A stretch of DNA of 64,000 nt. It comes from a virus. How positions within the stretch are numbered: the first letter of the stretch is position 1; every line of letters begins with the position of its first letter. The stretch is from the IMG/VR virus record IMGVR_UViG_3300042868_003477, positions 1 to 64,000 of that record; one strand, given 5' to 3'. The notes under the pieces were generated by a model. That model was not told the origin of the DNA. It saw only the letters and a program-made list of their open reading frames with translations, and did no database searches. A program made the translations under genes and the position numbers. Positions 27,001 through 49,149 of the stretch are shown here, one piece after another.

Positions 27001-29938
27001 GTTCAAGACCATTAGGTTCTCCATCTTTATCAGTTACCCTATTAACAATATTATATCTTTGCTCATATAGGTCTACTAGTTTTTTTGAGGTTTCAGATTC
27101 TTTTCCTTTTTCATTTATCTTTTTTATCTCTTCTAGTATTCCCTTTTTACTTTGATAATATTCATCTGTATAAGCAATTTTTAGATTTTTATTAAAAAAC
27201 TTTTCTAACTCTGCTTCATACTGATCCGGTGTTGCATCTTTAGTGACTCCTTTACCAGCTAATTCTACATTAATAAAGTGATCAAAATCTTGTTGGAATT
27301 TTTCATCATTAGTTATAGACTCATTAAACTTTCTTGATTGTTCTCTATGATATCTTCTTACTAATACTTTTTCTAATTCTACTCCTTGCTTGTATTTGCC
27401 ATCATTGTCATAAAGATTATACAATTCATTATACTTAGTCTTAACATTTTCTGATGCAGTAAACTCTAGTAAATCATCTAACTCTGTAAACTCACTTGAT
27501 GAGTTATAAGTTCTTAAGTCATCTAATGCAGATTTTCTCTCCATATAAGCTTCAAAAGCTATGTCTTTTGAAATAACTACATCTTTTTTTAATAATGGAT
27601 TGTATACAGTATTGTCTTTTTTCCAAATATCTTGTACATCATATACTTCATCAGTAAATCTACGGTTCATATACACTTTGTTAAAAGTATTTAATTCATC
27701 CATAGCTACTTTTATAGCATCTTTATCATTATTATCCTTAGCTTTTTTAAGATTAAATTCTAATTTATCTTTATCAGCTCTCCAGTCTTTAAATTTATCT
27801 AGAAAAGAATATATTTCATATTCTTTAAACTCTCCATTCTCATCAACTTCACCAACTTTATCTACAAATAAAACCATTTCAGCTAATTGATTTGGACTAT
27901 TAGCATTATACCCAACTGCATTTAAACTAGATTTTAAATTTTCAACTAGTTTCATTTGTTTCTGAAGTGTTGTAACTTCTTGATCAGAAAGTTTATCTCT
28001 CATAAACTGAGAGAAAGCTCCAAATAAGTCATTAACATTACCCATAGGGTTCAACATAGCACCAGCTGCAGAAACATCTCTTACATGTCCTCTTAGATAA
28101 GCATCTACTGAAGCTTCAGTAATCTTATTAGCTTGATAATTTTTTATTGCATTATCTAGATATTTTTTTGTAGGTAAGGGTTTTGATAATAGATCATTAA
28201 CATTTATATATTTTGTATCTTCTACATCTAATTTATCAAATAAAGCATTTGTAAATGTTTCTATCTCTTGTTCTGTATAACCTGATGATTTAAGTATTGT
28301 ATTTATTTGTTCTTCTAGTTTTGACTTTACATTTTTTTGCATTGGTTCTCCAACTTTTACAAAAAACTTTTTCATAAAGTCTGCAGTCATATCAGCAGCT
28401 GTTTCAATATTATTTTCAATAACTGCTTTTATAGATAATATTTTTTTACTTAACTCATTTGCTGGATCTAAACCTAAAATCTTACTAATATCTTTTAAGA
28501 ATTTACTTTCTCTTTCCATAAACTCTTTAAAGTACTGGATTTTTTGGTTACCTTCTTCTGTTAAATGCTTGTTTGTTTTCTGTAACTCATTAAAAATGTT
28601 ATTGATTTTTCTTGCAAACAATTCTAATTCACTAAGACTATTTATAAAAGATAAAGATCTTAATTTTAAATCTTGTTCATTAAGTTGTAAAGCTTCAACT
28701 AACTTATCTAGCTCTTCATCTGTAAGTTCATCATTATTATTTTTATAACTACCAACATAATCTTTTATGTTTTTGATTATATTAATACCATCTTTACCTA
28801 ATTCTTCTCTTAACTTTTTTGGTGATGTTCTTAACTGTCCTAATTGGAAAGTCATTTCATCATGAAATCTATTAATAGCATTAACTAAATTTTTTGGCTC
28901 AATAGATTTAAGTTCTTTTAAAAAGTCATCAGTATCTTTTTTAAAATCAGCAAACAAACTTGCTTGATAACTAAGATCTTCAATGACAAAGTCTTCATTT
29001 AACATCATATCTACTAATTCTTCTCTAGTAGTAGTAGTATCAAGCTTACTAAGATTTACTTTATTTGTCAGAGCTTTAATTACTTTTTTTATTGCATATA
29101 ATAAATTTTGTATAAACTTCTGAAATAAACTATCATCATCTTTAATACCTTTAAGTTTGTTATCAGCATCAATTTCCATTGCTGTTACAATAGCTTCCTC
29201 CATAAATCTAGGAGTACCTTCTTCTAACTCAGGATATCTTTCTTTTACAATAGCAATTGCATTTTGTCCAGTAGTAGAACTAATCAATTGATCATATAAA
29301 TTATTAAACAACTTAGGGTTTTGATAAGAAATACCCTTAATTAAGGGATGGGCAAACTCATGCATTACATTGTTAGCTGTAAATCTACCAGATACAAAAT
29401 AAACTTTATTCCCATAATAGAATGCAGATACATTAGGCGCATATGGTGTTGGACTATTTTGTAATAGCACAGCAGCTTCAGACGGTGTAATTATTTGATA
29501 ATCTACCTTAAAAGCTTTTTTAAACTTCTCACCTAGTCTATTAGCAATCTCAATATCTCTAGATTTATTTAACTGTTCTTTAGTAAAAAACATTTTAGTA
29601 CCATTACTGTCAAATAAATATTCATCAGTATATTCTTCACCAGCTCTTTTAGCATCTTCTTTTTGAATCTCTTTTGCCTCATTCTCAGCCATTTGCATTT
29701 CTCTCAACTCTATCATGAGTTCACTCTCATAGTAATTATCTACTAATGTCTGTGGTATATAGATATCATAATCAGGAGTATCTCCTCTTTCTAAATATAT
29801 AACAGTATCTTCACCATACTTTTCATTTAAAGATTTTATATAGTTTCTAGCTTGTTCAGGATTCATAGATAAAGCTTTTCTAGCTTCATTATTAATCATC
29901 TCACTTAGAAAATCTTTAATAGCAATTTGACAAGGCAT
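24062..29938 (-). CDS. Giant virion-type protein with metallopeptidase motif and LysM domain (1958 aa)
   Basis: The N-terminal part has a zinc-peptidase motif VMHEFAHPLIKG (His193, Glu194, His197), with FMEEAIVTAM about 50 residues on as a possible third ligand. A long coiled-coil-rich middle is followed by a LysM domain near residues 1630-1675 (HTIEAGDTLATLAKRYN, VGDSLVIS), which binds peptidoglycan in other proteins. The C-terminus has hydrophobic segments (VTEGMMLFFTGLLVTYLF). It is probably an ejected or capsid-packaged protein processed or acting at cell entry. It is the last gene of the late block. Confidence 0.75.
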   Translation of the reverse strand: MPCQIAIKDFLSEMINNEARKALSMNPEQARNYIKSLNEKYGEDTVIYLERGDTPDYDIYIPQTLVDNYYESELMIELREMQMAENEAKEIQKEDAKRAGEEYTDEYLFDSNGTKMFFTKEQLNKSRDIEIANRLGEKFKKAFKVDYQIITPSEAAVLLQNSPTPYAPNVSAFYYGNKVYFVSGRFTANNVMHEFAHPLIKGISYQNPKLFNNLYDQLISSTTGQNAIAIVKERYPELEEGTPRFMEEAIVTAMEIDADNKLKGIKDDDSLFQKFIQNLLYAIKKVIKALTNKVNLSKLDTTTTREELVDMMLNEDFVIEDLSYQASLFADFKKDTDDFLKELKSIEPKNLVNAINRFHDEMTFQLGQLRTSPKKLREELGKDGINIIKNIKDYVGSYKNNNDELTDEELDKLVEALQLNEQDLKLRSLSFINSLSELELFARKINNIFNELQKTNKHLTEEGNQKIQYFKEFMERESKFLKDISKILGLDPANELSKKILSIKAVIENNIETAADMTADFMKKFFVKVGEPMQKNVKSKLEEQINTILKSSGYTEQEIETFTNALFDKLDVEDTKYINVNDLLSKPLPTKKYLDNAIKNYQANKITEASVDAYLRGHVRDVSAAGAMLNPMGNVNDLFGAFSQFMRDKLSDQEVTTLQKQMKLVENLKSSLNAVGYNANSPNQLAEMVLFVDKVGEVDENGEFKEYEIYSFLDKFKDWRADKDKLEFNLKKAKDNNDKDAIKVAMDELNTFNKVYMNRRFTDEVYDVQDIWKKDNTVYNPLLKKDVVISKDIAFEAYMERKSALDDLRTYNSSSEFTELDDLLEFTASENVKTKYNELYNLYDNDGKYKQGVELEKVLVRRYHREQSRKFNESITNDEKFQQDFDHFINVELAGKGVTKDATPDQYEAELEKFFNKNLKIAYTDEYYQSKKGILEEIKKINEKGKESETSKKLVDLYEQRYNIVNRVTDKDGEPNGLELGIDTIKRLKQIELEIVDAQEQFDKKTGLTKEEAKKLRYYEESIIAQNKFNEMTPEEKAEYSGLIANKKAFGMAAEEISYLRNLYRMLADLTETSATDYYITSFTKALGDLKIEEVNVDNAESWINSSNLLEAKAKNSRFAEWFDRNHYSREIYDVSVGGYISKYYRLKVWSVSKPTNPEHYKTTEIKDPSTGEVFKRAGVPIAKYSYTKIKDQYKTGYNPKTQKVELEVGVHIDNKGNFLPKEFAVGSANGKYMNEKYYQLKASNNAQFKLLEKLKKDTLSMQEESPYSSRMYLDFPRFRKQDNLEYLATTNLKKDIKDKSSDILSNVKSWVMSANDDAERGLNFDTKHLYIKTDLQGNPISRVPVRGLYKMNVNDVSPDILRSLLTYGYSLDKQNALIEYEPIANAYLNTLADPNNALDRLDVASSVLAKAKDGASMFLKRSNNQRLQLAKDYIDRTFYGKNVSEWEQDNVKISKVIRGLMSNARFSFYSLNPVSTLKNKLGMDFQKLIYAAGGKHISFSSMARGTITSAKTVMEYAATGAYAKGVKSLNLQVMDAFDMSPGKAEKNSTDSASRTAVKDLLNAAWLYSDRKLTELQGSLDIGFSLLEFQTVEQIQPDGTPKEIRYAEAFETDKEGLLKLKDGINPEYGIKNLDHTIEAGDTLATLAKRYNMSVDELAKKNNLKPSAQINVGDSLVISRNTKFNEMKRRMASANKKLNGTMAKIDSPIGEKYLLYDVFTFSRKFGTGMFLSRYQADMSKENRFGEVWDWDLNEANRGKYIQFLATTKNLITDARNYWPIMTKEEKGQVYEVVTEGMMLFFTGLLVTYLFDYDPGDEDRFEKMRMRQERYGAGGWLANHALYQLMMVQRENQSFIPIPGVGMDEWLDFTETSSIVVGPTLSLYSKIVTDLGLIVTGSDKAIYKQEVGPYSWQKEGSYKIWNHIGNIFGLSGKNVIPPAGEWESGPIWAIKKAEIFENLR

Positions 29939-29967: not shown

Positions 29968-32900
29968 TTATTTACAACTAGATGAAGATCTTGGAATTCC
30001 TGGTAAACCTTCTGGTTTATTTTCATCAGATACTTCAGGTTGTATAGGCTCATCTCTTTTCATTTCTGGTGTCTCTGGTTCAGTCGGATCAGTTTCAGTT
30101 TCTTCAGAAGTTTCTTCAGCAAGAGGTCCTCCTGGAACTAAAGCTAATAATGCTTGAATTTCTGGTGAATCTGCTGCTAATATTTCTGGAACTAATTCTT
30201 CTGATTGAACTCTTGATAAACCATTTCTATATAAAGTAGGTTCAGATACATAATTTTTAAATGCACCTTTTGAATCTATAAGTCTTTTATATATTAAATC
30301 TAAGGTAGCTCCATTTAAATTATTTGTCTTAAATATATCTGCAGCATTCTGCATTACGCCTATATAATCTTCATAAGGCAATGCTTCAACAAAACCATAC
30401 TTACTATAGCCAATACCATGTTGATAAATCATCATGTTTGGTAATAGACTGAATAATTTACTTATTCTTTTATTATCTTCCTTGTCAGTTGATTTTACTA
30501 CATCAATATTTGCAAGATCTTTAATGTTAGTATAGTAAACTTCTGCTAACTGTGGATCCTTTAACATCTTGATATCATTAAGACTTAGTACAGATTCACC
30601 TGATTTAACTTTTGGTTTAGTTAATTGAGCAAGTATTGGATATTTGTTTTTTAAATTAGGAAATTCTTCTATCATATTAAGTACCATATCTGTATAGGAA
30701 TTGTTTGGTAATCCCATTATGGCTTGTCTGTTAAAACTATTTATTAAAGCTCTTTGATTCAGGTATTTTTCATAAGCTACTTTATTAGCTTGTTCTGGAT
30801 CTTTATTATATTTTTTAGTAAGACTGACAAATTTTAAATAATCTTTGTTTGTTTCTAAAGATTCTATTGGATACAAAAATCTTTGATACTCTCTTTCAAT
30901 AGAATATTTAAAATACATTGACTCATTAGCAAAGAGGTTGTCTTGTGCTCTAAAGCCTTGTAAACCAATTTGATTGTAAGCAGAAGAGTCTGTATTATCT
31001 CTTAGGTATAAACCTTCACTATATTCTTTACTTAATCTTTCTTTATCTATAAGTATACTATCTGCAGTTACTTCAACACCATTTTTAACCCCAGTTTTTT
31101 CAATTACTTTTTTCTCTTTATATTCTGAAGGCATGCTTGTTACTTGACCATTTTCATCAAGCATATTTGTCATGTAATTCTGGAATATATAATTTGGTAT
31201 AGCATTTTTAAATTCAGTAATAAATCTTCTTGCACCATCTTGACCAGAACCAAACTTAGATGTAATACTAGCTTGTCTAGTTTTTATAGCATTGATAATA
31301 TAATTAGTAACTGTAGCATTATTTCTTAATGGGAAAACAGGTACAATCATATCATTAATTAACTGATTATCAAAGAAAGGTCCTAATATAGATTCCATTA
31401 CTTTATCAACTAAACCTTTTGGTAATTTAGACATCTCTTTAGTTTCTTCTAAAGATAAGTTTCTATTGATTATTTCTTGTAAAGTTTTAGATGTTTTTGT
31501 GTCAGGATTAGACTGCATTTTTAATGTTGTAAATCCTTTAGACATTTTTTCTAGTTCAATAAAATGCAAGAACATAGCTTTAGCATATTCTCTATTTTCA
31601 GGATTAGATAAATTTCTGTCTTTAATTACAGCCATCATCTTATCATAATCAAAATTACCATCTTTTTCTAGTATACCACTATTAACTACAGTTGTAGTAA
31701 CAGCATTATAATAACCAGAATTAGATACAAGACTTTTCTTACCTTTTTTTAGACCAAATTTATTTAAAGTATTTTCAGCAGCTTGCCATTTAGTTGCTGT
31801 TTCTTTAAAATCTTGTGGTATTTTTTTAGTTAATTTAGCATAAGCACTACCAATTAACCTTTGTTCTTTTGTATAATCTCTTACAAGAGGATTTGATACA
31901 AAAGCAATTGCTAATTCTTTTGGTACACCTGCTTTAAGTAAAAATGTAATCATAGGTACTGTTTCATAGTTACCCTGAATAAAAGATATCCAAGCGTCTT
32001 TTTCAACATCCACGGCACCATTCATAAACTGAGAATATAAGTCTGCAATTTTATCTACACCAAAGACATCATCTGTACCTGAAAGAGAAACAGCACCTTC
32101 TGTTGTTTCATTATGTGGTAAAAACAATCTTACATTATAATCTTCATCAGTATCTACATATCTATTTAATTGGTCATCAAAAGTTGAAGCCTTATAAGTC
32201 TTTGGTAAAGAAGCACCTACTGAATTAAATATTGGGTGCAAAGAGTTTTCTACTGCTAACATACCTAATACATTTTTACCAACCATATTTACATCATGTT
32301 TATGTAAATTGTAAGCTGCTTCAAGTATTCTACTAGGACTAATAACCTTTTGTCCTTTTAAACCTTTTTTAGTATTCTTATCATGTGTGTTTTTAAATCT
32401 GTTGTACTCAATTACATCATCCTGTAATTCATCAGCAAGATCATCTTTTAATAAGTATGTATCATTTGGTCTAACTAAGTTAGCATAGTTATCTGGTAAC
32501 TCTAATATACCTTTGATAGATTGAATTAATTCATTCTCTAAGGCAGCTTTTTGAGTTTTGATAATATTTACTGCTGTTTTTTTTCCGGCTTCAGTTTGAT
32601 TAAGCTCTTTTACTTTAGTTGCTACAGCTTGGTTTGACATACCAGATTCTACAAACTTACCAAAACTATCAATAGTAGGCATGAATGTAGTTAATTTATC
32701 AACGTCAAAGTCACCCCCTGATTTTGCAACAATCTCTGTAGGAGGAATAATAATATTACCTGCAGCAGGATCTAGAAATTCATATACTTCCATAAACTCC
32801 ATTGAGTTTAATCCTTGTACTGGAATCCTTACAGCTGATAGAGTAACAGATTTTCTATGGTTACCTTTATCTAACCATACATCATCTTTAATCATATCAT

Positions 32901-35900
32901 TAAGTCTAGCTCTTGTACCAATTACTTCACCATCATTATGTTTAAGTTTTAGTAAGTTATAGAAATCTCCTTGTAAAGCAATAGCTATTTTCATAGCACT
33001 AGTCTTACCGTCTGTTGTTTCATTATTATAAAAAGGTAAGTTATTAGTACCCATGTATTTTCTAACATCAGCTTCTGTAGAATTCTTAAACTTACGATCC
33101 CATAAACCATTAGACATAGTACTAGATACTTGTACTAAAGCTTCACCTTTTACTTTTTGTTTAATTAATCTTTTCTCAACAAGAGAAACCAAGATCTTTT
33201 CAATTTCATCAGCTTTTAAATGTAAAGACAAGTCTGTTTTTAAAGACTTATCTCTATTTAAACCAACTAGTTGAATTAAGTGTTCAGGTAAATCTTTTCT
33301 ATCTAGTTCAGCTTGTACTACATCCAAGAAATTATCTAAGTTACCAGAATACTTTTTAGTTTCTGGATTATACTCATAACCAATTTCATTTAGTAATTCA
33401 AGTTTAAGAATATTACTATAGCCTTTTACAGCTGTTTCATATCTTTTAACTGCAGGCTCATTCTTAGAATTAATAATCTCACCATTACGGTACATATCCC
33501 CAAGAATCAACTTTCTTAACTGAGTAGCAAATACAGTTTTACCTTTATATTTATTAGGTACACTAGTAACATTCTTAAGATATTCTAAATGAACAACATT
33601 TGGAGTAAATTTAATATCTTTCTTAAGTGACTTTTGTTCTGAGTCATCATAAATTTTATCTGGTTTACCATTAGATGTAACACTACCTACTTTAGAACCT
33701 GTTTGAAAAGTAACATATTGAACTCCTGATTTCATCATTTGTTCATGTAAAGATTGTAAATCTGAATCTCTAACTACAGATGGAATAAGTGGAGCTAATG
33801 CAAATTTATGCATTGCTGTTATTGGTAAACCTGTTAATCTAGTTTCACCAATTTTACTAGCTAATGGACCAAAGTTTTGTGCTTTTAATACAGGAAACAT
33901 TTCTGTAACATCTCCTGCAGAAATATCTAAACCTTCTACTACTTTTTGAAATAATATTTCTTGAGCATTAGACCAATTGTTTTGTAAAATATTTAATGTA
34001 CGGTATCCATCAAAAGTGATAAAGCCTTGACCATCACCTTCTTCCATACCAGTAAATTTTTTAACTTCTTTTGCTACTCTTCTATCAATTTCTGCTTTAG
34101 ATACGTTAGTCTTAGCATATCTTTTTTCATAGTCAGCTCTAAGACCTTTTTCAATCTGATTTACATATACAGAGTCTCTTTCAATATCTTGAAGTATAGC
34201 TGTAGTGTAAGTACCATCATAACTAATAGGTTGAATATCATCATTTTTTAATGAAGCTGCATAAGATGTATTTGCTACATAATCATTGATAAATCTTTGA
34301 GCATCTTTATCTGTTCTATAACCAGGACCTCCAGAAGTAGAACCTGTATTTCTTTTATGCATCTCTTCTTTATCATGGTTATACTGTACAAAGTCTCCAT
34401 AAAATAAAATACCCATTTCAAAATTATGAATCCATGCATTGTAAGTATAAGCTTCAATAAGAGTTTTTTCTATTTCTTCTTCAGTTTTATCTGATTTTTT
34501 AAATCTTTCATATAAATCTGGACTTAAGTATTTTGATTCTGAAAATAAACTATAGTTTAATTCAGTTTGATCTTTAAAAGATTCTTTAACATTTGCTCTA
34601 ATTCTATCCATTATTCCTTTTGGATTAGTAGAAACAAAAGTTTTTAAATCAAAATTTGTTTTTTCTTCAATAGCTTTGTCTATAGCAGCATATATTTCTT
34701 CTTTAACAGAGCTTGATAATAAGTCATCAAATATTGTAAAGACTTCACCAGCCATTTTACCATCTCCTATCTTTCTATTATAGCCTGCATAGTTTTTATA
34801 CTCATCTTTATTCTGTCTAAATCTAAATATTCTATCAGCTTCTCCTTCCATATAAGGAAGTATATGTGCTTTTAATGCATATTCTCCAGCAGTATTTTTG
34901 TCAAACATATCAATGTCAACCCATAACTGATTATCATCACCTTTCTTTCCAGGTTGTGGAACAACACCACCATCAACATAAGCACCAAATGAAGATGACT
35001 TAGATGCATGTCTCATGAATTCTTGAACACCACCCTTAAGCATAGTGTTTATTTCTTGAAGCATTTTACTATTAACATCTAAAGAAGTTGTATTTTTTCC
35101 TTCAGCAGAAATGTTTGCATCATATTGAGTACCAGAATCCATAAATAACTTTAAAGACTTGTTTTGTCTTTTTAGTTGTTGTGAACTATTAACATCAAAT
35201 AGTGATCTTATAACACCAAGCTTTTTAGTATATGAATTAATAGTAGGATCTAAATAAGACATGTAACTTAGTGAGTCATCTGTCCATAAATCAGAAAGTT
35301 TTTTTGCAGCATTTAAACCATACACTTGTTTACTAATTGAATGATTATCAATATGTTCAAATACTAAATTTCTTTCTGCATTAAATACTCCAAAGTTAGA
35401 ACCTTCAGAACCATATCTTACTTGTAATTCAGCAAGGTTGTTAAGTTGTGTCTTTTGGTTTATTACACCCTTACCAGCTATTCCTTCTGGAATACCTTTT
35501 ATAAACATACCAACAGGATCTGTTTTAAATTCATTAATTACAGTTCTAACATTATATGGTGTAGTACTTAATTTTTCTTTTGAATGCATTTCACTAATAG
35601 CATCAAATAGATAAGGTAAACCAAATTTCTCAATAGCTTTAGTATCTTTTTTAAGAACAGACTTGATAATAGGATTATCATCTAGACTTATACCTATAGC
35701 TCTAGCAAAATCAAAAGATTGAGCCTCATCTAAAGTGCCCTTAGTGTTTGAAAAGGTTGATACTACTTTTTCTAAATTTAAAGTAGGAATATTATCCTTA
35801 CCAATTCTATCTACAAATGTATTTTTAGTATCTCCTTTAAACTTATCTTGAAAAGTTTTTATAGCATTGCTTGCATCTATTGAAGCATCTGTTACTGCTA

Positions 35901-38900
35901 CACTAAAATCATATACTGGAGTATCTGATTCTGTAACAACAGGTATTGGATTACCATTCTTATCTAATTGGTTACTCATTTGAGGAGTACCAAATATAGT
36001 TAACTGTATATATGGTACACGCGGTTTGTTAAAGTCTTGCCAAAAAGAAGTAGTTATCTTAAATTCAAAAATATTATTACTTGTATTTGGATTAGGCAAC
36101 TTACTTAATAGTTGTTTAAATACAGGGACAGATACACTTTCTTCAATAATAGCATCATACATGTCTTTTGGATCTTGTAGACCACTCAGTGTTCTTACTG
36201 TGTTATTCCAAGTACTTCTAAAATCAGCAAGTTTTTTGAAACCTAACTCATTATATTCAAACTGACCTTTATCATTTACAGCATGTAAACTTTTTAAAAG
36301 ATATAAAGTTTCTTTACCAGCAAGTTCAATTAAAGACTTATCTCCTACTTTCTTATCACCATATCTTTCAGTTTCTGTACCAGCAGATGGATTAAATAAA
36401 TTACCTTCTTCATCTAATTCTAGATTAATATACTTCTGACGGATTAAATCAAAAGAACTATTTAGTACATGATATGCTACAGTACCACTATCAGTATTAC
36501 CATAGTTATCAATACCTGCTTGTAATATTCTTATTCTATTGTTTAATAAATCTTTTTTTATTTCAGTCTCTTCTGTTTCTTCTGTATTTTCTAATTTATT
36601 TAAATCTTCTTTGAGTGACTTTAACTTAGCTGTAAGTTTAATTTTTATAAATTTATATAGAGGTTCTCTATTTCTAGAATCAAGTAATATACCTAATGAT
36701 TTAGATTTATCATTACTAACACTATTCTGTTCATCAACAAGATCTGATATTAAAGAGTCCATACTTTCCTTAAGTAAGTTAGAGTCTTGTCTATTTAATA
36801 CTTGTACATCTTGTGTTCCTGGTTCAACAATACCTGAATTTCTTTCAAGAACATCAAACATTACATTATCCACAAGAGGTGTATAGTTATTTAAGTCTTT
36901 ACCTAAGTATAACTTATCAAACATTTCAGCAACAGTTCCTATCTCAGTTACATCAGTAACAGAACCTTTACCAAATAGTGATTTAATAAAGTTTAATATT
37001 CTTCTGAATAAACTATTTTGTTTAGGGCTATTTTTTTTTGCTTTTGGATTTTTAGCATAAGTTCTAAAATCTTCAGCTAGTATTTCTTCTATCTCAAAGA
37101 ATGTTTTATTACCACCAAGTCTACCTTGTACTTCTTTATACAAAGCTTTTTTCTCTGCTTTAGTTAAGAATAACTGTGTGAATCCGTGCCAAGCTTCATG
37201 ATATACATCAACCATTGAACCTTTCTTAGCTAACTCAATTGTACCTAAGTTACCATTAAGAACGGAACCATGTTTTATAAACCTAGCATATGCATTAGAG
37301 TTGACTATGTTTGCTACTTGTTTTAAATCAATGTATTTATTTAAAGGAGAATTACCCCACCATTTCTTAGCTTCATCAATTTGTTCTTGACTAACATCTG
37401 ATGGTAAGTTTTCAGATCTATAAAAGAATATATCTCCAGCTCCATCCTCTTCAGGAGAAGGTGTATTGTCTGGAGCAATAATATTATTTATTTCTGCTTC
37501 AATTTCTTCTATAGATTTTTTAACAACTGGTTTTGTAGTAAAGTCTTTTGTAGCTCTAACATAACCAATATTCTTATTTCCTATTCTTACTTGAACTGGA
37601 TCTTTAAATACATCTCCTTGTTCTGTTATGATATTTGGTACTAAATGTAAAGTAGCTTCTTGTGTTAAATCTTCTTCAGTTATATTTTGTTCTTTATTAT
37701 AAAACTCTACTACGTTACCTTTTTTAGTAGTCAGTTCCCATCTTGTTCTTGAACTAGCAGGTTTTGAAATAATTCCTTTTAAAGGATAACCTTCTTTTAA
37801 AAGTTCAACAACTCTTTCTTTTGTTTCAATAACTCCTAAAGTAGGAGATTGCTCATCTTCTGGTACCTGGTTTTCAAAAAAGTCATCTCTTATAATTTCT
37901 GTTTCATCTTCCTCAGCTTCATTAATCTGCTTAGTTATTTCATTTGGTAAAGCAAAATACATATAACTATTAAAACTTCTACTTTTAACATCTAGATTAA
38001 TAAACAGCTTAGTATTAGGTAGTGTGCTTAACAAAATAGAATAAGAAGAATAAAAATCATCAATAGTATTAGTATCAAGATTATAATCTTGGTATTGCAT
38101 ATTCTTTAACAAAGCTGCATTATAAGTCATCTTAGCAGAAAAGTATTTACCATCTTTACCTGATGCATTTTTTAATGCATTATATATTTCTTCTTGAGCA
38201 GTTGATGATTCTAAATTAACAGTAGTAAATTTACTAGCATAACCTTCTTGATATGAAGTTGGTGAATATGAAAATACTAGTGTATCTGTATTAGGTAAAT
38301 ATGACAACACATGTTTTCTTGTTGCATCTGATGCTTTCTCTGATAAAAACTGTGTAACAAAATCATATCTATCATTCTTAGATATATTAGGATTTACTAA
38401 AACAGCAGCAATTTTTTTAATTAAATCATCTGTTAAATTAGGTCTATCAATTTTATATTCAGAACCTTTTAATTGTATAACAGCTTCACCTTTAGAAAAA
38501 CTAGAACGTCCAGACTTAATAGTAGTTATAGTTGACATAACATATTCTGGATTATCTACTATCTCTGAAAGTGTAGATAGATTAATAGCTTTTGGAGCAT
38601 ACTCACTAATTCCATTACTTATATCAGTAATGTTTACTAATGGAGTTTCACCTTTTAATAAACTTTGTTTAAAATCATATAACTCTTTAAACTCTTGTTG
38701 TTGTGTTTTATAAATATCTTTTACTAGTTCTTCATATGCCTCTTTTGATAATTCATTTTTTCTATTAATAGCATCTGCAATAGCACGGGGACTTAATATA
38801 GTATCAGTTTTACCATATATATCAGTTACTCTATATCCTTTACTGTCTTTTCTTACTTCTCTTAAAAATTGGTAAACTAATTTACCACCATCTTCCATAG

Positions 38901-39717
38901 TAGAAATATCTCCATTTTCTGAAAAATAAACTGGCTGACCACCTTGATCAGTCATTATCATTAAGAATAACTCATCAGGAGTAGTAACATTAGCTTGAGC
39001 TTTATTTATTTTATTTAAATACAAAGCTCTATTTAATAACCTAGCTGTAGATTTATCTAACATCTCTGCTGGAATATCTGACAATCTAATTGGTTTTAGA
39101 TTAAGCTTTTTATTTTGATACATAATACTTTTTAAAGAAGCATTATTATCCATATTAGCTTTAATAGCTTTTAAAGTATTATATATAACTTTTCTACTAC
39201 TGTCTAATGTTTCTAATTGTTCAGCATTGTTAGGATCTACTTGTAAAAATTCTTGAAAAGTTGTAGATATAGCTGAGTAAGGTTTATAGTCTAAAGGATC
39301 TTTTACTATATCATCTCCTGTCTTCTCTTCAATAACAAATGCTTTTTCTTCAGTCTTTGCAATTAACTCTGCTTTAACTGCAGGATTAGAAATAGGATCA
39401 AAATATTTAACTACATTATTTAAACCTTGATCTTCATTTTTAAAAGATTTAATTAAAGGTCTTAAATTATCTGTTTTAATATCTAAATCTCCAAGAGAAG
39501 GTCTGAATGAAGCTGTACCAATTAAAGTAGGAATTTGTTGTAAAAACTTAGCTGCTGTGTCGGCATCTTTTGCTCCAGCTATTTTATTAAATAGATCTGT
39601 CATATAAGTTTTAGTGTCAAACTCAACACCTTTTTTTATACTATCAATCATGTGACCATACACATGAGCATATAATTTTTCAATCTGAGATTGGCTTAAA
39701 GCACAAGTAATTTTCAT
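29968..39717 (-). CDS. Giant virion RNA polymerase-type protein (3249 aa)
   Basis: It contains the multi-Asp signature GGDFDVDKL (Asp2336, Asp2338, Asp2340) preceded by a proline/aromatic strand run (RIPVQGLNS ... IIPPTE), the arrangement of the catalytic double-psi barrel of multi-subunit-type RNA polymerases and of the virion RNA polymerase of crAss-like phages (phi14:2 gp66 has the related DFDID, established). It would transcribe early genes after ejection. Near residue 840 lies a second motif, YHEAWHGF (HExxH), with EEILAEDF about 35 residues on. The rest is mostly helical and unassigned. Size exceeds the 2,180 aa of phi14:2 gp66. Confidence 0.85.
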   Translation of the reverse strand: MKITCALSQSQIEKLYAHVYGHMIDSIKKGVEFDTKTYMTDLFNKIAGAKDADTAAKFLQQIPTLIGTASFRPSLGDLDIKTDNLRPLIKSFKNEDQGLNNVVKYFDPISNPAVKAELIAKTEEKAFVIEEKTGDDIVKDPLDYKPYSAISTTFQEFLQVDPNNAEQLETLDSSRKVIYNTLKAIKANMDNNASLKSIMYQNKKLNLKPIRLSDIPAEMLDKSTARLLNRALYLNKINKAQANVTTPDELFLMIMTDQGGQPVYFSENGDISTMEDGGKLVYQFLREVRKDSKGYRVTDIYGKTDTILSPRAIADAINRKNELSKEAYEELVKDIYKTQQQEFKELYDFKQSLLKGETPLVNITDISNGISEYAPKAINLSTLSEIVDNPEYVMSTITTIKSGRSSFSKGEAVIQLKGSEYKIDRPNLTDDLIKKIAAVLVNPNISKNDRYDFVTQFLSEKASDATRKHVLSYLPNTDTLVFSYSPTSYQEGYASKFTTVNLESSTAQEEIYNALKNASGKDGKYFSAKMTYNAALLKNMQYQDYNLDTNTIDDFYSSYSILLSTLPNTKLFINLDVKSRSFNSYMYFALPNEITKQINEAEEDETEIIRDDFFENQVPEDEQSPTLGVIETKERVVELLKEGYPLKGIISKPASSRTRWELTTKKGNVVEFYNKEQNITEEDLTQEATLHLVPNIITEQGDVFKDPVQVRIGNKNIGYVRATKDFTTKPVVKKSIEEIEAEINNIIAPDNTPSPEEDGAGDIFFYRSENLPSDVSQEQIDEAKKWWGNSPLNKYIDLKQVANIVNSNAYARFIKHGSVLNGNLGTIELAKKGSMVDVYHEAWHGFTQLFLTKAEKKALYKEVQGRLGGNKTFFEIEEILAEDFRTYAKNPKAKKNSPKQNSLFRRILNFIKSLFGKGSVTDVTEIGTVAEMFDKLYLGKDLNNYTPLVDNVMFDVLERNSGIVEPGTQDVQVLNRQDSNLLKESMDSLISDLVDEQNSVSNDKSKSLGILLDSRNREPLYKFIKIKLTAKLKSLKEDLNKLENTEETEETEIKKDLLNNRIRILQAGIDNYGNTDSGTVAYHVLNSSFDLIRQKYINLELDEEGNLFNPSAGTETERYGDKKVGDKSLIELAGKETLYLLKSLHAVNDKGQFEYNELGFKKLADFRSTWNNTVRTLSGLQDPKDMYDAIIEESVSVPVFKQLLSKLPNPNTSNNIFEFKITTSFWQDFNKPRVPYIQLTIFGTPQMSNQLDKNGNPIPVVTESDTPVYDFSVAVTDASIDASNAIKTFQDKFKGDTKNTFVDRIGKDNIPTLNLEKVVSTFSNTKGTLDEAQSFDFARAIGISLDDNPIIKSVLKKDTKAIEKFGLPYLFDAISEMHSKEKLSTTPYNVRTVINEFKTDPVGMFIKGIPEGIAGKGVINQKTQLNNLAELQVRYGSEGSNFGVFNAERNLVFEHIDNHSISKQVYGLNAAKKLSDLWTDDSLSYMSYLDPTINSYTKKLGVIRSLFDVNSSQQLKRQNKSLKLFMDSGTQYDANISAEGKNTTSLDVNSKMLQEINTMLKGGVQEFMRHASKSSSFGAYVDGGVVPQPGKKGDDNQLWVDIDMFDKNTAGEYALKAHILPYMEGEADRIFRFRQNKDEYKNYAGYNRKIGDGKMAGEVFTIFDDLLSSSVKEEIYAAIDKAIEEKTNFDLKTFVSTNPKGIMDRIRANVKESFKDQTELNYSLFSESKYLSPDLYERFKKSDKTEEEIEKTLIEAYTYNAWIHNFEMGILFYGDFVQYNHDKEEMHKRNTGSTSGGPGYRTDKDAQRFINDYVANTSYAASLKNDDIQPISYDGTYTTAILQDIERDSVYVNQIEKGLRADYEKRYAKTNVSKAEIDRRVAKEVKKFTGMEEGDGQGFITFDGYRTLNILQNNWSNAQEILFQKVVEGLDISAGDVTEMFPVLKAQNFGPLASKIGETRLTGLPITAMHKFALAPLIPSVVRDSDLQSLHEQMMKSGVQYVTFQTGSKVGSVTSNGKPDKIYDDSEQKSLKKDIKFTPNVVHLEYLKNVTSVPNKYKGKTVFATQLRKLILGDMYRNGEIINSKNEPAVKRYETAVKGYSNILKLELLNEIGYEYNPETKKYSGNLDNFLDVVQAELDRKDLPEHLIQLVGLNRDKSLKTDLSLHLKADEIEKILVSLVEKRLIKQKVKGEALVQVSSTMSNGLWDRKFKNSTEADVRKYMGTNNLPFYNNETTDGKTSAMKIAIALQGDFYNLLKLKHNDGEVIGTRARLNDMIKDDVWLDKGNHRKSVTLSAVRIPVQGLNSMEFMEVYEFLDPAAGNIIIPPTEIVAKSGGDFDVDKLTTFMPTIDSFGKFVESGMSNQAVATKVKELNQTEAGKKTAVNIIKTQKAALENELIQSIKGILELPDNYANLVRPNDTYLLKDDLADELQDDVIEYNRFKNTHDKNTKKGLKGQKVISPSRILEAAYNLHKHDVNMVGKNVLGMLAVENSLHPIFNSVGASLPKTYKASTFDDQLNRYVDTDEDYNVRLFLPHNETTEGAVSLSGTDDVFGVDKIADLYSQFMNGAVDVEKDAWISFIQGNYETVPMITFLLKAGVPKELAIAFVSNPLVRDYTKEQRLIGSAYAKLTKKIPQDFKETATKWQAAENTLNKFGLKKGKKSLVSNSGYYNAVTTTVVNSGILEKDGNFDYDKMMAVIKDRNLSNPENREYAKAMFLHFIELEKMSKGFTTLKMQSNPDTKTSKTLQEIINRNLSLEETKEMSKLPKGLVDKVMESILGPFFDNQLINDMIVPVFPLRNNATVTNYIINAIKTRQASITSKFGSGQDGARRFITEFKNAIPNYIFQNYMTNMLDENGQVTSMPSEYKEKKVIEKTGVKNGVEVTADSILIDKERLSKEYSEGLYLRDNTDSSAYNQIGLQGFRAQDNLFANESMYFKYSIEREYQRFLYPIESLETNKDYLKFVSLTKKYNKDPEQANKVAYEKYLNQRALINSFNRQAIMGLPNNSYTDMVLNMIEEFPNLKNKYPILAQLTKPKVKSGESVLSLNDIKMLKDPQLAEVYYTNIKDLANIDVVKSTDKEDNKRISKLFSLLPNMMIYQHGIGYSKYGFVEALPYEDYIGVMQNAADIFKTNNLNGATLDLIYKRLIDSKGAFKNYVSEPTLYRNGLSRVQSEELVPEILAADSPEIQALLALVPGGPLAEETSEETETDPTEPETPEMKRDEPIQPEVSDENKPEGLPGIPRSSSSCK

Positions 39718-39720
39718 ATC

Positions 39721-42700
39721 TTAACAATCTAAATCATCTAATAATTCTTTATCTAAGGTATCTGTTGTTTTGTTCATAGATGCCTTTTCAATTCTATCTA
39801 ACTCTCCGTCTTTATTTTGTATTAAGCCTTCAATAAGATCTATTGATTTATCTACCATAGATTTTTCTGCTGATGTGGTAGGTGTTTCTGTTGGATTAGT
39901 TGCTCCCATTATTACTTCTTTAAGATTAAATAAAAGATTTAAATTATTAAAACTTATTTCTTGTTTTGCAGAAGTACCTAGATTAGAGACAGTTACAGTT
40001 TTTGCAACTTCATTTATTGACTCTATAATTACTGTATCATTTTCCTTAGCAAATACTTCATTTGTAGGTGTAAAGATAGTAGTTTTTGCAACAAATTGAG
40101 AATCCTTTTGTAAAGATGTTGGTACAATTTTTATAGCATTGTTATCAATGTCTTGTTTTTTAGCCATCATCAATTCAGACATTTTCTCTAAATTATCAAA
40201 AGCAATATTTCCTTCAATTACCTTACTCTCTAATAAGTCTTTAAGAGCTAATAAGCCATCCATGTCATTGACTTTATCTAATTCTTTTTGGAAATCAGTT
40301 AAATCAAATTCAGTTTCTGGACTAATATAAGCATTGTCTATATCAGGACTTTCTGTTGGAGAAGCAGTATCATCAGAAGACTCTGCATCAGTAGGTACTA
40401 CTGAAGCTGGTTCTACTACTATAGAACTTAATGGTGCATTAGGCATTGGTATAATAGAGTTAATTCTATCTTGTACATCAGCTTTACTTAATGCAATTAA
40501 GAAATCAGAAGATAACAAAGTTGGACTAGTTGGTTTACCAGCAGATGTTATTCTACCTGTTTCTTTTTCTCTTGTCATTTGAACTGGTAATAAAGCTATG
40601 TTAGGATTAACACCAATCATTCTATTTAATAGATTAGCATATGCAGTTTGTTGTAACTGATAATCCTCCATCTTAGAATTAGCATTGTTCTTTTTCTTAA
40701 AGTTATCCCACTTAGATTTCTCACCAGTCTTAACATCCACAATAGTAATGTTACCTGAAGTATCAGCTACAAGTAAATCTATTTCTCCTGCAATCTTTAA
40801 TTCTTTGTCAAATACTCTAATACCTTGAGAAACAACATATATCTCACCATTGTCAACTCTTTTCTTAAGAGCTGTTAAGAAACCTTTTTCTCCAAATAAA
40901 TCATCAAATGCTTCTTGCGTAATATTTTTTTCATTGAATTCAATTGGTTTATCTCCTTCAAATAATCTTTTGATTTGCTCATCTATGTAGTTACCAGAGA
41001 TTCTAGACTCTTCATAAGTTTTTTCAGATACTACTTGCTGTATTTTGTTTAGTAAATCTTCACTTGTTAGCTTAGATTCTGTTGTATATAATTCATCAGT
41101 AAGTTCTTGTTGTAACTCATTATATGTAAACTCACTAAAGCCAGATAAACTTCTACTTCTAAGTTCTTGAATGAACTCATTAATATTAATTCCTGTTAAA
41201 GGAGTACTACCAATAGTTAAGTAAAAAGCAGTAGCTACATCTTTAGCATTAGTATATTCATACTTATCTCCTTTTAACTCTTGGATTACTCTTGTTACTC
41301 TTTTATAGACTTCACCATCAATCATATAACCAGCAGGAGATTGTTCAATTTCTCCTTGCTTATCTTTTAATTCTTGTATCTTGTTAATAGCTTCCTGTAG
41401 CTCAGGAGTCATTCCTTTTTTAGCTCTGGTTGCAATTAACTTTTCTAGATCATTAACAACTATAGTATAGTTATTTTTGTTGGCAATGTCTTCTGCTGTA
41501 GGTTCTTTAATAGCATTAATATCTTTGATTAATGTATTTAACCTTCTTTGGAATACTCTTAATTGAGGTAAACTTTTAGTACTAGTGTCAATTTGTTTAC
41601 CTTGATAAACAAACTTAAAATCTTCTTTTTCACCTAGTTCTTTGGTTGTCTCTTCTAGTTTTAAAGATTTATTGTAATCTTCAATTATTTGTTTAGCTTC
41701 TCTATCTGATTGTAAAAACTTAATGAATACATTCCTCATCTTTTCAGCATCAAAACCTAGTTCTATATCTTCTTCCTCTGTAAGTTTTGATAAATATTTT
41801 TTATCAAATAACTCATAGAGTTTATTATATAGTACTGGATCCATATCTTCTGGTGCAGTATCACTAGATACTATAACAGGTTCTTTAGATGTAGGTGCTT
41901 CTGCTTTTCTATTATTAAAATCATTAATTATTTGCTCTCTATATCTTTCAAACTTTTCTTCTATAGGTTTAACTAACTCTGGATCTGGTTCTTCTCTTAA
42001 TGTGTATACTCTTGCTTTAGTAAATTCTATTGCAGCTGTAGTAGGATCAAATTCAGCACCTTCTTTTGAGTCTAATCTAAGAGTGCCGTCCGTATCCATA
42101 TAAAATATTAATGGAAATTCTCCACCATATTCTACTTCAGCAAAAGAATCAGGTACCATAATCTCTGGTAACTTAGTAAATGGAATATCTAAACCATCTT
42201 TAGATTCTAAAGTATCAATAGTTTTTTCTACTTCTTTTTTAGGTAAAGCATCAAGAGCTTCTTGTTTTTGTTCTTCAAGTTTATCTAATAGTCTTTTTAA
42301 TTCAGCATCTAAACTCTCAGGTAAATTAGTAGTAGGCTCATCTTTTATTTCAGAAGCTTGTTCAAACAACATATAATACTCTTCATACTGTTCTGTTCCT
42401 TCAGGAATAATCATTTTTGATTCATGATCATAGAACTCAGAAGGTGGGGTACCATCTTTTTTCCAAGCTTCAAAGTCTTCTAAGCTAATATAAATACCTT
42501 TGTTTGCAAGAGCATTTAACAAAGCATTATCAACTACAATTCCAAATTCATCTTTAACTATTTTTTCATAGATAGAACCTCTTCTAGCATACAAATCCTT
42601 CATCCATTTTCTATTTCTATCTACTAAGTCTAAAAATCCTCCTGGATCATGTAAAAGATTTACATATTTCATTATCTGTTTAGCTTCTGAATCTAGTTTT

Positions 42701-45561
42701 TGATGGTCAGCTAATAAATTAAAAGACTCATCTAAATTTTTATCAAATACAAAGTCATCACTAAGACCTGCAATAGTTTTTAAATAATCTCTGTAAGCTC
42801 CTTCATATTCAGAAAACTTTTCTATTTTGTTATCTTCTGTAAAGTCTCCAAAAAATTTATTTAATACTTCATCTACTTCTTCATCAGTTACAGGAACATC
42901 ACCTTTTTCTTTTTGCAATTCTTCTTTTACAAGACCTGCTTTTTCATATCTATTAAAAAAGTTTCTGTACTTAGCTGTAGACTCTGCCAATTTTTCTAAA
43001 GCTCCTAGTTTTCTTTTTTTCTTTTCAAGATCTTCTCTAGTTCTTTCATCAAGTTCTAAACCATCAATTACCTTTACTTGATCTTTTAATAAAGCTATTT
43101 CATTTTTTAACTTACCATAATCAAATAACACTTCTGCATCTGATTGAGTCATGTTTTTAAATGGTTTTTTTGTTATGAAATTTTGTAATACATCTGCTTT
43201 TCTCTGCATAGTATAGTCAAAAGTCTCTCCAAAATAAACAGCATTTTCTGTAGCTTTATTCCAAGCATGATGTAATGCTACAGCATCTTCATACTCAGGT
43301 GTATTTTTTGGAGGTAAATTTTCTTGAGTAATGGGATTAGGAAATTTTTCATTATAAAAATTATATCTTTTCTCAATACTTTTAGTTTTGTTTATTACAT
43401 CATCTATCTTAGTAAGATATTTTTCTCCTTCACCTTTTGGTATGTTTGGAATATTTTCTTCTAACTCAGCAGGTGTTAATTGTTTCAAGTCTTCTAACTT
43501 AACTCTAAACATATCTAAGCCACCTTTTTGAATTAAGGTATCCATTTGTTTTAGAAAAGCTTCATCTGTAGCATCTATTGCTTCTTTTTTACTGCCTGTT
43601 TCTTTAACTCCAGCTACTAAGTCTTGAACACCATAATTAAAAGGTCTAGCATTTAAGAATTCATTTATATCAATAGAATTTAGATTACTAACTAAATTCT
43701 CCATTATAGCCGTTTTTTGTTGTTTAAACTCTCTGTAACCTTCTTTGTTAAACAGTTTATTATAACCTGTTGATAAAAACTCTACACTGTTATTAATAGG
43801 AGAAGCTATAGCCCCCATTGCAAAACCAGAAGCAAATGTTTCAAAACCTCTACCAGTTAACTGATTTCTTGCTTCTTCTTTAAAAAAATCTAATTTAGAT
43901 TTATTAGCTAAGCTGTCTACAGCTTTAGAATATATATTTGATTTAAGAGCTGGACTATCAAATGTATCTGTATAATATTTTTCATTAGCTCCTGATACAA
44001 TTTCTTGCATACTTTCTTGAACACCTTCAGAGAAGTTTCCTTTAAAGTAGCCAACAGTATTTTTAGCAGATTTATATATAGGTTGTCTACCCCAATCTTT
44101 TACATAATTAATAAAATTATTTTTCTTAAAATTAAATTCTTTTTTACCTTGATCATATACTACAGAACCTAGTTTACCAAATTTACCACTAGATACTTGT
44201 TGAAGTTCTTTAGCTGTATTTCTCATAAAGCTAGGTATACCACCTTTAGGACCAACTATATTTGGAAATGTAATTGCATTACTTGCATATATTAAAGCTG
44301 TATTCCATTTAAGTGTACTTAATGATGCTTCTTTAGATTGTTTAAACATATCATATTGAACATCATTATCAGGAGCTTTACCGTTATCTCTATAGTATTT
44401 ATTATAAAGGTTATCATATACTTGATTTTCATTCATCCCGGCTTCTAGTCTAGCCTCAGATAGAGCCATGTTTATACTTCTTACATCTTTATAAAAACCT
44501 CCTGCTGTTTTATAAGCTTTAGCAAGGTTTGTTAAATTATATAATTGATCACCTTTTTTTACAGTTTCACCAAGACCTTTTACAGCATAAGCTGTATTTT
44601 GAAAAGGACTTAAAGAACCTGTACCAGTTCTTTTAGCTGCTTCCCAAAACTTTCTAGCATTAGACACACTTTCTACACTTTTTAAAGTTGTGTTTACAGC
44701 CTTATAACCATCTACAGCCATGTCAATTCCTTTAACGGCTCTAGCTGTATTTTTTAAGAAATTAGCTGATGTTAAAAAGAAACTTCCTCCTAATGTTTCA
44801 GGGGCAAGTAATACACCAAGTGCTTCTTCAGTAATAGCTTCTGCCATAATACCTGCAGAATAACCAAAGTTCATTACTAAATTATTTGTAAATCCAAAGA
44901 CTCCTCCTTTACTAGATTGACCAATAGCTGCTGCACTAGTATAAGCTTCAGCATCTTCAAGATCACTAGAAGTAAAGTCTCCTTGAAGCATTTTACCCAT
45001 ACTTTTCCAACCACTTCCAAAACCTCTACCAAATAAAGGTATGAAAGAATGTTTCATCATTCTAGAAAAGTCATCTACTTTACTAGTTCTAGAGTTAAAT
45101 AAAGCTTCATTATCTCTTAGTGGTGAGAAACCTATCTTATCAAAAGCTTCTTGTCCATATGCATTATATCTTTTATAAAAAGCATTACCATCAGGACCAG
45201 CATCATAAGAATATATTTTTGCATAACTATTAGTATCCTGATTACTTTGTACCTTAGCTTGGATATCACTACGCAAAGCATTCTTAATATCTTGAAAATT
45301 AGCATTTTTAGGTACTCCTGTTTTATTAGGAGGTTGCTGTACTAATGTTTTTCTTACATTTTGTTGAGGCTGACTTAAACTATCTAAGCCAGGTAATGTA
45401 GGAAAAAATCTATCTTGTGAAGGAAAGTTTATTTTAGGTGTAGAAATCTTATCTCCTTCAAAAGCTGCTAAACCTTTACTATCAATTGTAGGAGCATTAA
45501 TTCTACCATACTCTGGTCCTAAAGGATCTAAAGAATTAAAACCATCATTAGTACTTGCCAT
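39721..45561 (-). CDS. Large virion-type protein with embedded PD-(D/E)XK nuclease (about 1946 aa)
   Basis: I take the start at 45561 (MASTNDGFNSLDPLG); a longer frame begins at 45612. The N-terminal region is Pro/Gln-rich and then Gly/Ala-rich with helical segments (AGIMAEAITEEALGVLLAP), suited to membrane contact. A nuclease core is seen near residue 1600: IAGEIDLLVAD then ITIVDVKTGE then YQLQQTAYANLL, the PD-(D/E)XK pattern. Packaged beside the polymerase, it may cut host DNA or process phage DNA on entry; that role is inferred. Confidence 0.75.
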   Translation of the reverse strand: MASTNDGFNSLDPLGPEYGRINAPTIDSKGLAAFEGDKISTPKINFPSQDRFFPTLPGLDSLSQPQQNVRKTLVQQPPNKTGVPKNANFQDIKNALRSDIQAKVQSNQDTNSYAKIYSYDAGPDGNAFYKRYNAYGQEAFDKIGFSPLRDNEALFNSRTSKVDDFSRMMKHSFIPLFGRGFGSGWKSMGKMLQGDFTSSDLEDAEAYTSAAAIGQSSKGGVFGFTNNLVMNFGYSAGIMAEAITEEALGVLLAPETLGGSFFLTSANFLKNTARAVKGIDMAVDGYKAVNTTLKSVESVSNARKFWEAAKRTGTGSLSPFQNTAYAVKGLGETVKKGDQLYNLTNLAKAYKTAGGFYKDVRSINMALSEARLEAGMNENQVYDNLYNKYYRDNGKAPDNDVQYDMFKQSKEASLSTLKWNTALIYASNAITFPNIVGPKGGIPSFMRNTAKELQQVSSGKFGKLGSVVYDQGKKEFNFKKNNFINYVKDWGRQPIYKSAKNTVGYFKGNFSEGVQESMQEIVSGANEKYYTDTFDSPALKSNIYSKAVDSLANKSKLDFFKEEARNQLTGRGFETFASGFAMGAIASPINNSVEFLSTGYNKLFNKEGYREFKQQKTAIMENLVSNLNSIDINEFLNARPFNYGVQDLVAGVKETGSKKEAIDATDEAFLKQMDTLIQKGGLDMFRVKLEDLKQLTPAELEENIPNIPKGEGEKYLTKIDDVINKTKSIEKRYNFYNEKFPNPITQENLPPKNTPEYEDAVALHHAWNKATENAVYFGETFDYTMQRKADVLQNFITKKPFKNMTQSDAEVLFDYGKLKNEIALLKDQVKVIDGLELDERTREDLEKKKRKLGALEKLAESTAKYRNFFNRYEKAGLVKEELQKEKGDVPVTDEEVDEVLNKFFGDFTEDNKIEKFSEYEGAYRDYLKTIAGLSDDFVFDKNLDESFNLLADHQKLDSEAKQIMKYVNLLHDPGGFLDLVDRNRKWMKDLYARRGSIYEKIVKDEFGIVVDNALLNALANKGIYISLEDFEAWKKDGTPPSEFYDHESKMIIPEGTEQYEEYYMLFEQASEIKDEPTTNLPESLDAELKRLLDKLEEQKQEALDALPKKEVEKTIDTLESKDGLDIPFTKLPEIMVPDSFAEVEYGGEFPLIFYMDTDGTLRLDSKEGAEFDPTTAAIEFTKARVYTLREEPDPELVKPIEEKFERYREQIINDFNNRKAEAPTSKEPVIVSSDTAPEDMDPVLYNKLYELFDKKYLSKLTEEEDIELGFDAEKMRNVFIKFLQSDREAKQIIEDYNKSLKLEETTKELGEKEDFKFVYQGKQIDTSTKSLPQLRVFQRRLNTLIKDINAIKEPTAEDIANKNNYTIVVNDLEKLIATRAKKGMTPELQEAINKIQELKDKQGEIEQSPAGYMIDGEVYKRVTRVIQELKGDKYEYTNAKDVATAFYLTIGSTPLTGININEFIQELRSRSLSGFSEFTYNELQQELTDELYTTESKLTSEDLLNKIQQVVSEKTYEESRISGNYIDEQIKRLFEGDKPIEFNEKNITQEAFDDLFGEKGFLTALKKRVDNGEIYVVSQGIRVFDKELKIAGEIDLLVADTSGNITIVDVKTGEKSKWDNFKKKNNANSKMEDYQLQQTAYANLLNRMIGVNPNIALLPVQMTREKETGRITSAGKPTSPTLLSSDFLIALSKADVQDRINSIIPMPNAPLSSIVVEPASVVPTDAESSDDTASPTESPDIDNAYISPETEFDLTDFQKELDKVNDMDGLLALKDLLESKVIEGNIAFDNLEKMSELMMAKKQDIDNNAIKIVPTSLQKDSQFVAKTTIFTPTNEVFAKENDTVIIESINEVAKTVTVSNLGTSAKQEISFNNLNLLFNLKEVIMGATNPTETPTTSAEKSMVDKSIDLIEGLIQNKDGELDRIEKASMNKTTDTLDKELLDDLDC

Positions 45562-48654: not shown

Positions 48655-49149
48655 TTATTTAAAATTTAAATTTGCATATATTCCTACATATAATGCTGCA
48701 GCTGCATCATATGCTTTTGCTGCCTCAATTTCTGTAATATATCTTTTAGTTAATACTCTTTTACCATTTACCATTAGTTGAGCATTCCATTTATTTCTTG
48801 CTTTATCATAAGTAACCCCTAAGTATTTAGATGAACTGTTTTTGTGAGAAGAAGTATTTCTATTATTTTCTGCTTTAGTACAAATTCTTAAATTACTTTT
48901 TTGATTGTTTAAAGAATTACCATCTATATGATCTACAACTAAATTAGAATCATTACATCTCATAATTACTCTATGTAAAAAAACTTCATATTTTACTCCT
49001 GATTTTAATATACTTTTCTTTTTAGATCTTTTTACATAAAATTTATTTTTAATAAATACAGCATTCCAATTCCATTGGCTTAACCAATAATAATCTTCAT
49101 CATCTACTGTTGTATAAATGTTATTACCTAAATATAAATCCTTTGCCAT
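48655..49149 (-). CDS. Free-standing HNH endonuclease with AP2 DNA-binding domain (164 aa)
   Basis: The HNH core is FLHRVIMRC...VVDHIDGNSLNNQKSNLRIC, and the C-terminal AP2 domain is SSKYLGVTYDKARNKWNAQL...KRYITEIEAAKAYDAAA. This is a homing endonuclease of the HNH-AP2 type, here in the late virion block with its stop only 2 bases before the next gene, without intron signs. It can be a mobile gene that inserted between structural genes. Confidence 0.85.
   Translation of the reverse strand: MAKDLYLGNNIYTTVDDEDYYWLSQWNWNAVFIKNKFYVKRSKKKSILKSGVKYEVFLHRVIMRCNDSNLVVDHIDGNSLNNQKSNLRICTKAENNRNTSSHKNSSSKYLGVTYDKARNKWNAQLMVNGKRVLTKRYITEIEAAKAYDAAAALYVGIYANLNFK

Follow-up and report, generated by a model that had tools for sequence, protein, structure and literature searches.

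How several giant folded proteins of crassviruses pass through a narrow tail, and in which order, is an open question, and the locus described here suggests a concrete answer in the form of a rule about cysteines at protein ends. The locus lies in the first 64,000 nucleotides (hereafter, the window) of a virus record of 65,457 bases (IMG/VR IMGVR_UViG_3300042868_003477). A preliminary description of the window had reported a 3,249-aa open reading frame (ORF), without naming its strand, as a giant protein carrying the RNA-polymerase signature DFDVD. The ORF is real and is encoded on the minus strand; we refer to its product as protein B and to its giant upstream and downstream neighbours as A and C (Table 1). 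Transcription at the locus runs from a gene for a 1,034-aa protein through A and B to C, and the phage replication genes of the window lie on the opposite strand.

Table 1. Features of the A–B–C locus, with positions in the window and residue numbers of the encoded proteins.
Feature	Position	Strand	Basis or remark
A, giant upstream protein with PD-(D/E)XK nuclease domain	39721–45564	minus	sole Cys is the last residue (39724–39726)
B, 3,249-aa RNA polymerase (virion location inferred) with N-terminal block and zincin	29968–39717	minus	profile, fold, conservation
Cys5 of B, N-terminal junction cysteine	39703–39705	minus	alignment, Cys counts
Zincin-like metallopeptidase domain of B, aa ~780–960 (activity inferred)	36838–37380	minus	invariant in 39 sequences; profile match to the C-terminal part of gp47 in crAss001
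HEAWH of the zincin, aa 840–844	37186–37200	minus	third-ligand candidates E877/E878/E882
Beta-like double-psi barrel region of B, aa ~1890–2060	33538–34050	minus	profile, fold, conservation; invariant K1971 and K2009
Beta'-like double-psi barrel region of B, aa ~2290–2420	32458–32850	minus	profile, fold, conservation
DFDVD catalytic motif of B, aa 2336–2340	32698–32712	minus	conservation
Cys3248 of B, C-terminal junction cysteine	29974–29976	minus	sole invariant column in C-terminal alignment
C, giant downstream protein, 1,958 aa	24062–29938	minus	sole Cys is Cys3 (29930–29932); LysM aa 1635–1677; HEFAH aa 193
Exchangeable C-terminal domains of the polymerase ORF			L009, L011, L021, L028, L031, L033, L036, L038, L059

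Is B a polymerase at all? The alternative, that DFDVD is a chance occurrence in a non-polymerase structural protein, draws on the searches with B as a single sequence, which returned no polymerase match in Pfam, PHROGs or PDB and missed 6vr4, the structure of the phi14:2 virion polymerase. That structure was reached solely by profiles and by fold. A four-sequence profile of B matched PDB 6vr4_A (E = 3.5e-23) with both barrels colinear, the three main stretches being the lysine-bearing beta-like barrel, the barrel that holds DxDxD and a region downstream. An AlphaFold model of the core (aa 1640–2700; alignment of 40 sequences from the window and IMG/VR; pLDDT 82.8, pTM 0.80) retrieved the same entry in Foldseek (E = 2e-28, probability 1.00, TM 0.63 by query length), and every later match, with PhiKZ, AR9, E. 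coli and Pol II polymerases among them, had E ≥ 0.8. By tblastn against 50,697 phage records, the core found the phi14:2 polymerase (8e-7), crAss001 gp50 (8e-9) and cr108_1 (6e-20). K1971 (in HK), K2009 (in GSK), D2336, D2338, D2340 and K2341 are invariant in the 40 sequences, and the best-conserved block of B is aa 2301–2350, where 41 of 50 positions are identical in the first four relatives. The high conservation around DFDVD, together with the invariant residues of HEAWH, indicates that neither motif is due to chance, and the profile and fold matches and the invariant catalytic residues all but exclude a non-polymerase protein. B was also considered as an N4-like virion polymerase and rejected, as it has the two-barrel fold of the phi14:2 enzyme and not the T7-like single-subunit fold.

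B therefore adds a new and longer protein to a polymerase family already known. Very probably it belongs to the crAss-like virion RNA polymerases of the phi14:2 gp66 type; its family and fold are shown, and its packaging and transcription activity are inferred. The preliminary description held in its central claim of a polymerase with a double-psi barrel, and also in naming DFDVD the only DxDxD candidate, provided that the hydrophobic pattern D-hydrophobic-D-hydrophobic-D is meant; DFDVD is its sole instance in B, and the other D.D.D, DTDED (aa 2522), does not fit. The structure prediction yields two barrels matching 6vr4, although the geometry of the aspartates and metal is not part of this support. 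Lack of a second barrel with lysines would have refuted the claim, but a beta-like barrel is present in the same polypeptide, with K1971 and K2009 at the expected place in the alignment to 6vr4. What failed were the marks of distinction. The valine variant is common, DFDVD being found in 29 of 66 IMG/VR relatives (DFDID in 25, DYDVD in 8, DFDGD and DYDID in 2 each) and in crAss001 gp50. The ~1,000 additional residues exist and are N-terminal, but they are not unique, as relatives of more than 3,000 aa are common in the clade and the longest exceed 5,300 aa.

The additional residues make up a block at the N-terminus that includes a conserved zincin, whose HEAWH is the single HExxH of B. Across 39 sequences H840, E841, H844, E877, E878 and E882 are invariant, and the model places the HExxH helix at residues 835–850 and a helix with the downstream glutamates (EExxAE) at 873–889. 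On this motif conservation and these modelled helices we assign a zincin-like metallopeptidase; its peptidase activity is inferred. No match of the region to a known zincin family or structure was obtained in Pfam or PDB, where a zincin profile gave a single chance-level match to PDB. The zincin profile did find the C-terminal part of crAss001 gp47 (E = 5.8e-12) and fused giant proteins of Suoliviridae, and gp45 of Carjivirus (p-crAssphage) is annotated as 'RNAP associated protein fused to zincin protease'. The gp47 match and the gp45 annotation indicate that the phages share one domain order, from nuclease through zincin to barrel 1 and barrel 2. Between these phages, gene starts and ends differ and the domain order does not; in the window, the A|B boundary is shifted so that the zincin joins the polymerase. 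The fused HExxH domain of the preliminary description is thus real, but what is new about it is no more than a shifted gene boundary, the zincin itself being known from crAss phages. Every N4-like virion polymerase likewise has a fused zincin, although its polymerase fold is unrelated to that of B (Iyer et al. 2017, PMC5512222), and we regard this as an independent parallel. A model of the N-terminal 1,010 aa (pTM 0.37) had no PDB match; compared with viral models, its three best matches (E ≤ 0.001) included two named crAss-like proteins, and the block is therefore likely to be a module common to crAss-like phages, with its function undetermined. The zincin would probably process cargo or work in the host. 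Separately, C also contains an HExxH, the second of the locus, in addition to its LysM; this HEFAH is kept in relatives L009–L011.

The cysteines of these proteins follow a striking distribution. In the window, A has one (the last residue), B two (5 and 3248) and C one (3). In phi14:2 the cysteines are C1797, the last, in gp78, C3 and C2179 in gp77, and C3 in gp76; in crAss001 they are C2339 in gp47, C5, C1334 and C2404 in gp50, and C5 in gp49. Together with phi17:2 and Lbo-JY46, these are the genomes in which the pattern was inspected as support. Over 52 IMG/VR loci, A ends with a cysteine in 45 of 48 cases (0.28 expected by composition), B begins with one in 44 of 48 and ends with one in 46 of 47 (0.13 expected), and C begins with one in 40 of 41, whereas internal cysteines of B number 9 per 187,946 aa. 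Of the four B N-termini that miss, two (L040, L036) resemble start miscalls and two (L071, L081) belong to broken ORFs. In 18 Crassvirales genomes, the rule is met at 83 of 84 ends (log10 p = −101 under uniform placement, without correction for kinship). The end-cysteine rule is a pattern across Crassvirales: the first protein of the chain lacks the N-terminal cysteine, the last lacks the C-terminal one, and the position is loose, from −1 to about −9. Exceptions are the fused AB proteins of cr10_1 (Cys at −11) and cr273_1 (final Cys 50 residues short of the C-terminus). End cysteines are not mentioned in the literature searched; the phi14:2 structure paper lay outside that search, so prior notice is not excluded. 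The 3,500-aa injected polymerase of N4 has no cysteine, and cysteine poverty, as opposed to the end rule, may be general among injected proteins.

Three further observations concern individual genomes. The p-crAss protein gp47 (L094, 23141–25714) has a single cysteine at −2 (C856) and no evident partner, which makes it another exception to the end rule. In L071 (1734–14884), the polymerase gene is in several ORFs, of which the apparent N- and C-terminal fragments still carry the end cysteines. In phi17:2 (L016, 27090–28643, 517 aa) and csAssE-Sib (L018, 27650–29908, 752 aa), a small middle protein has a cysteine at both ends.

Natural changes in gene boundaries show how the cysteines behave. 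Where A and B are fused (Suoliviridae, FPSV-S29, cr108_1), the fusion protein lacks the N-terminal cysteine and has the C-terminal one, and the next protein begins with a cysteine. For the fusion of B and C (p-crAss, analysed as BK010471, cr3_1 and cr271_1) the pattern was predicted ahead of computing: A ends in a cysteine, BC begins with one, and none lies near the C-terminus of BC. With either fusion, the cysteine pair of that junction is missing. Conversely, where a fourth protein of 242–655 aa stands between B and C (L024, L031, L034, L036), it has Cys3 and a cysteine as its last residue, and L063 has the same small inserted protein with a cysteine at both ends. Relative to the zincin, the A|B boundary differs in place: the domain belongs to A in crAss001 and to B in the window, and in both genomes the cysteine pair sits where the two proteins meet. 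The two sides of a junction gain and lose their cysteines together.

These data bear on two other explanations. In the first, B is an ordinary member of the crAss virion polymerases and its terminal cysteines are a functionless relic of the lineage. The unambiguous polymerase homology favours it. Against it, the cysteine adjoining the C-terminus (C3248 in the window) is the sole invariant column in an alignment of 34 polymerase tails that are otherwise unalignable, and new ends, both of the inserted proteins and at the shifted boundary, gained cysteines; already strained by the counts over the 52 loci and the 84 ends, this explanation is very unlikely. In the second, a DNA-level constraint such as a coupling signal at the junction incidentally encodes cysteine, in keeping with most junctions being a few bases apart. 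However, the junction cysteines are encoded by both TGT and TGC and vary in position, and in crAss001 the gene for A lies on the strand opposite to B and C with the pattern kept, which shows that gene adjacency is not its cause. We consider a DNA-level constraint all but excluded.

We favour, by a modest margin, the view that cargo proteins synthesised one by one become linked head to tail through disulfides at their junctions and are released in the host; the disulfide is inferred. A, B and C would be packaged and injected, as inferred by homology to phi14:2 and crAss001. The C-terminal cysteine of A would pair with the N-terminal one of B, and the C-terminal one of B with the N-terminal one of C, a disulfide taking the place of the peptide bond wherever members of the convoy are separate proteins. 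Such bonds would form in the oxidising virion, the oxidised chain would travel through the narrow tail with its members in sequence, and the reducing host cytoplasm would cleave it, freeing B to transcribe early genes. Disulfides do occur in crAss001 virions, in the tail and at the portal vertex, and partial unfolding has been proposed for the cargo, which has to pass constrictions of less than 50 Å (PMC10172136). A thioredoxin is encoded near the block in some crass-like phages, which is only suggestive; none was seen by eye among the small ORFs of the window, where the record is a fragment. A virion disulfide between A, B and C is not reported in the literature searched, and a point against it is that the producing cytoplasm is reducing, so that the bonds could arise only once packaging or lysis has taken place. 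Joining by native chemical ligation or by an intein was rejected as a route, the N-terminal cysteine being at position 3–5 and not 1.

The main rival to the disulfide chain is binding to a common third partner, in which the end cysteines are assembly tags that, at each junction, are bound by or bonded to a metal or a further virion protein and no direct A–B or B–C bond exists. That the rule concerns ends, that paired gain and loss would also suit a shared adaptor, and that placement from −1 to about −9 implies loose geometry all speak for it. On the other hand, an end tag does not predict the absence of cysteine at the first N-terminus and the last C-terminus, and the other putative cargo proteins of the window contain no cysteine, which leaves no evident partner. 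On balance we lean away from assembly tags.

Returning to the disulfide chain, we judge the explanation as a whole (polymerase, zincin and disulfide-linked convoy) likely. A bolder reading, which we would neither back nor dismiss, sees a disulfide code by which a convoy of ~7,000 residues would traverse the tail as a single chain and be uncoupled by host reduction; in the course of evolution its members would fuse, split and be inserted, and the polymerase tail would accommodate counter-defence domains that can be exchanged. If true, this would be protein concatenation of a kind that, to our knowledge, has no counterpart in any other virus.

The polymerase tail does vary in content. In the window it is a short acidic linker. 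Behind the core of 34 relatives we found AlkB-like 2OG-Fe(II) oxygenase (6), circularly permuted YpsA SLOG (4), NADAR (3), helicase-type AAA_30 (2), AAA_33 kinase (2) and RNase H (1) domains, and the cr126_1 polymerase is annotated with DUF1768, the older name of NADAR. One cassette occurs in the polymerase of L050, as a separate protein in L031 and in C of L056 (69% identity to L031), which indicates that modules move between members of the block. If the bolder reading is true, the virion polymerase would be a vehicle that brings further enzymes (AlkB-like, NADAR, SLOG, helicase, RNase H) into the host. Crassviruses rank among the most abundant groups of human gut viruses, and such cargo would suggest that they counter host defences early.

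Interrupted genes were observed in the window and in related genomes. In cr108_1 (L013, 15503–15794) and bajarodcaudo virus 1 (L091, 22998–26685), the polymerase gene is interrupted within the DxDxD motif, with an endonuclease gene between the halves in bajarodcaudo virus 1; this is as expected of a homing intron at a catalytic motif, a possibility we raise tentatively. In the window, a uracil-DNA glycosylase-like gene (3184–4696) is apparently split (3184–3426 and 4304–4696) by an ORF at 3484–4062 with two CxxC, likely an intron with an HNH-type endonuclease. An ATPase gene (14008–16225) is apparently split by a GIY-YIG homing endonuclease (14484–15233), and an HNH endonuclease ORF (48655–49149) is flanked by two virion genes.

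Among known systems, the phi14:2 polymerase (g066 in RefSeq, gp077 in GenBank; PDB 6vr4) resembles B in that a single polypeptide holds both barrels, with DFD(I/V)D and the barrel lysines, in that its gene lies between those of two giant virion proteins, and in having a cysteine near each end and no other. It differs in its length of 2,180 aa, its lack of the N-terminal zincin block and an identity of only ~23%. The A–B–C order opposite the replication genes is the same in phi14:2, where gp76–78 are all annotated from virion MS/MS. In crAss001, gp47, gp50 and gp49 are the counterparts of A, B and C (virion cargo, RNAP-associated) and were found in virions; gp50 has DFDVD and the cysteine end rule is the same, but gp47, and not the polymerase, carries the zincin, at its C-terminal end, and is encoded on the opposite strand. 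p-crAssphage gp44 and gp45 likewise comprise an RNAP catalytic subunit and a zincin-fused RNAP-associated protein, with A ending and B beginning in cysteine, but B and C form one 4,070-aa protein without a C-terminal cysteine and the zincin is in A. The N4-like virion polymerases of Schitoviridae share with B the great size (~3,500 aa), injection and a fused zincin MPTase (Iyer 2017, PMC5512222); unlike B, they have no DxDxD barrel and, being devoid of cysteine, no end rule. Polyvalent proteins (same study) are likewise injected giants with a zincin hub and exchangeable effector domains. In the text searched of that study the terms 'crAss', NADAR, AlkB and SLOG were not found, and crAss-like polymerases are not discussed there; these differ from polyvalent proteins in their fixed polymerase core and cysteine-bearing ends.
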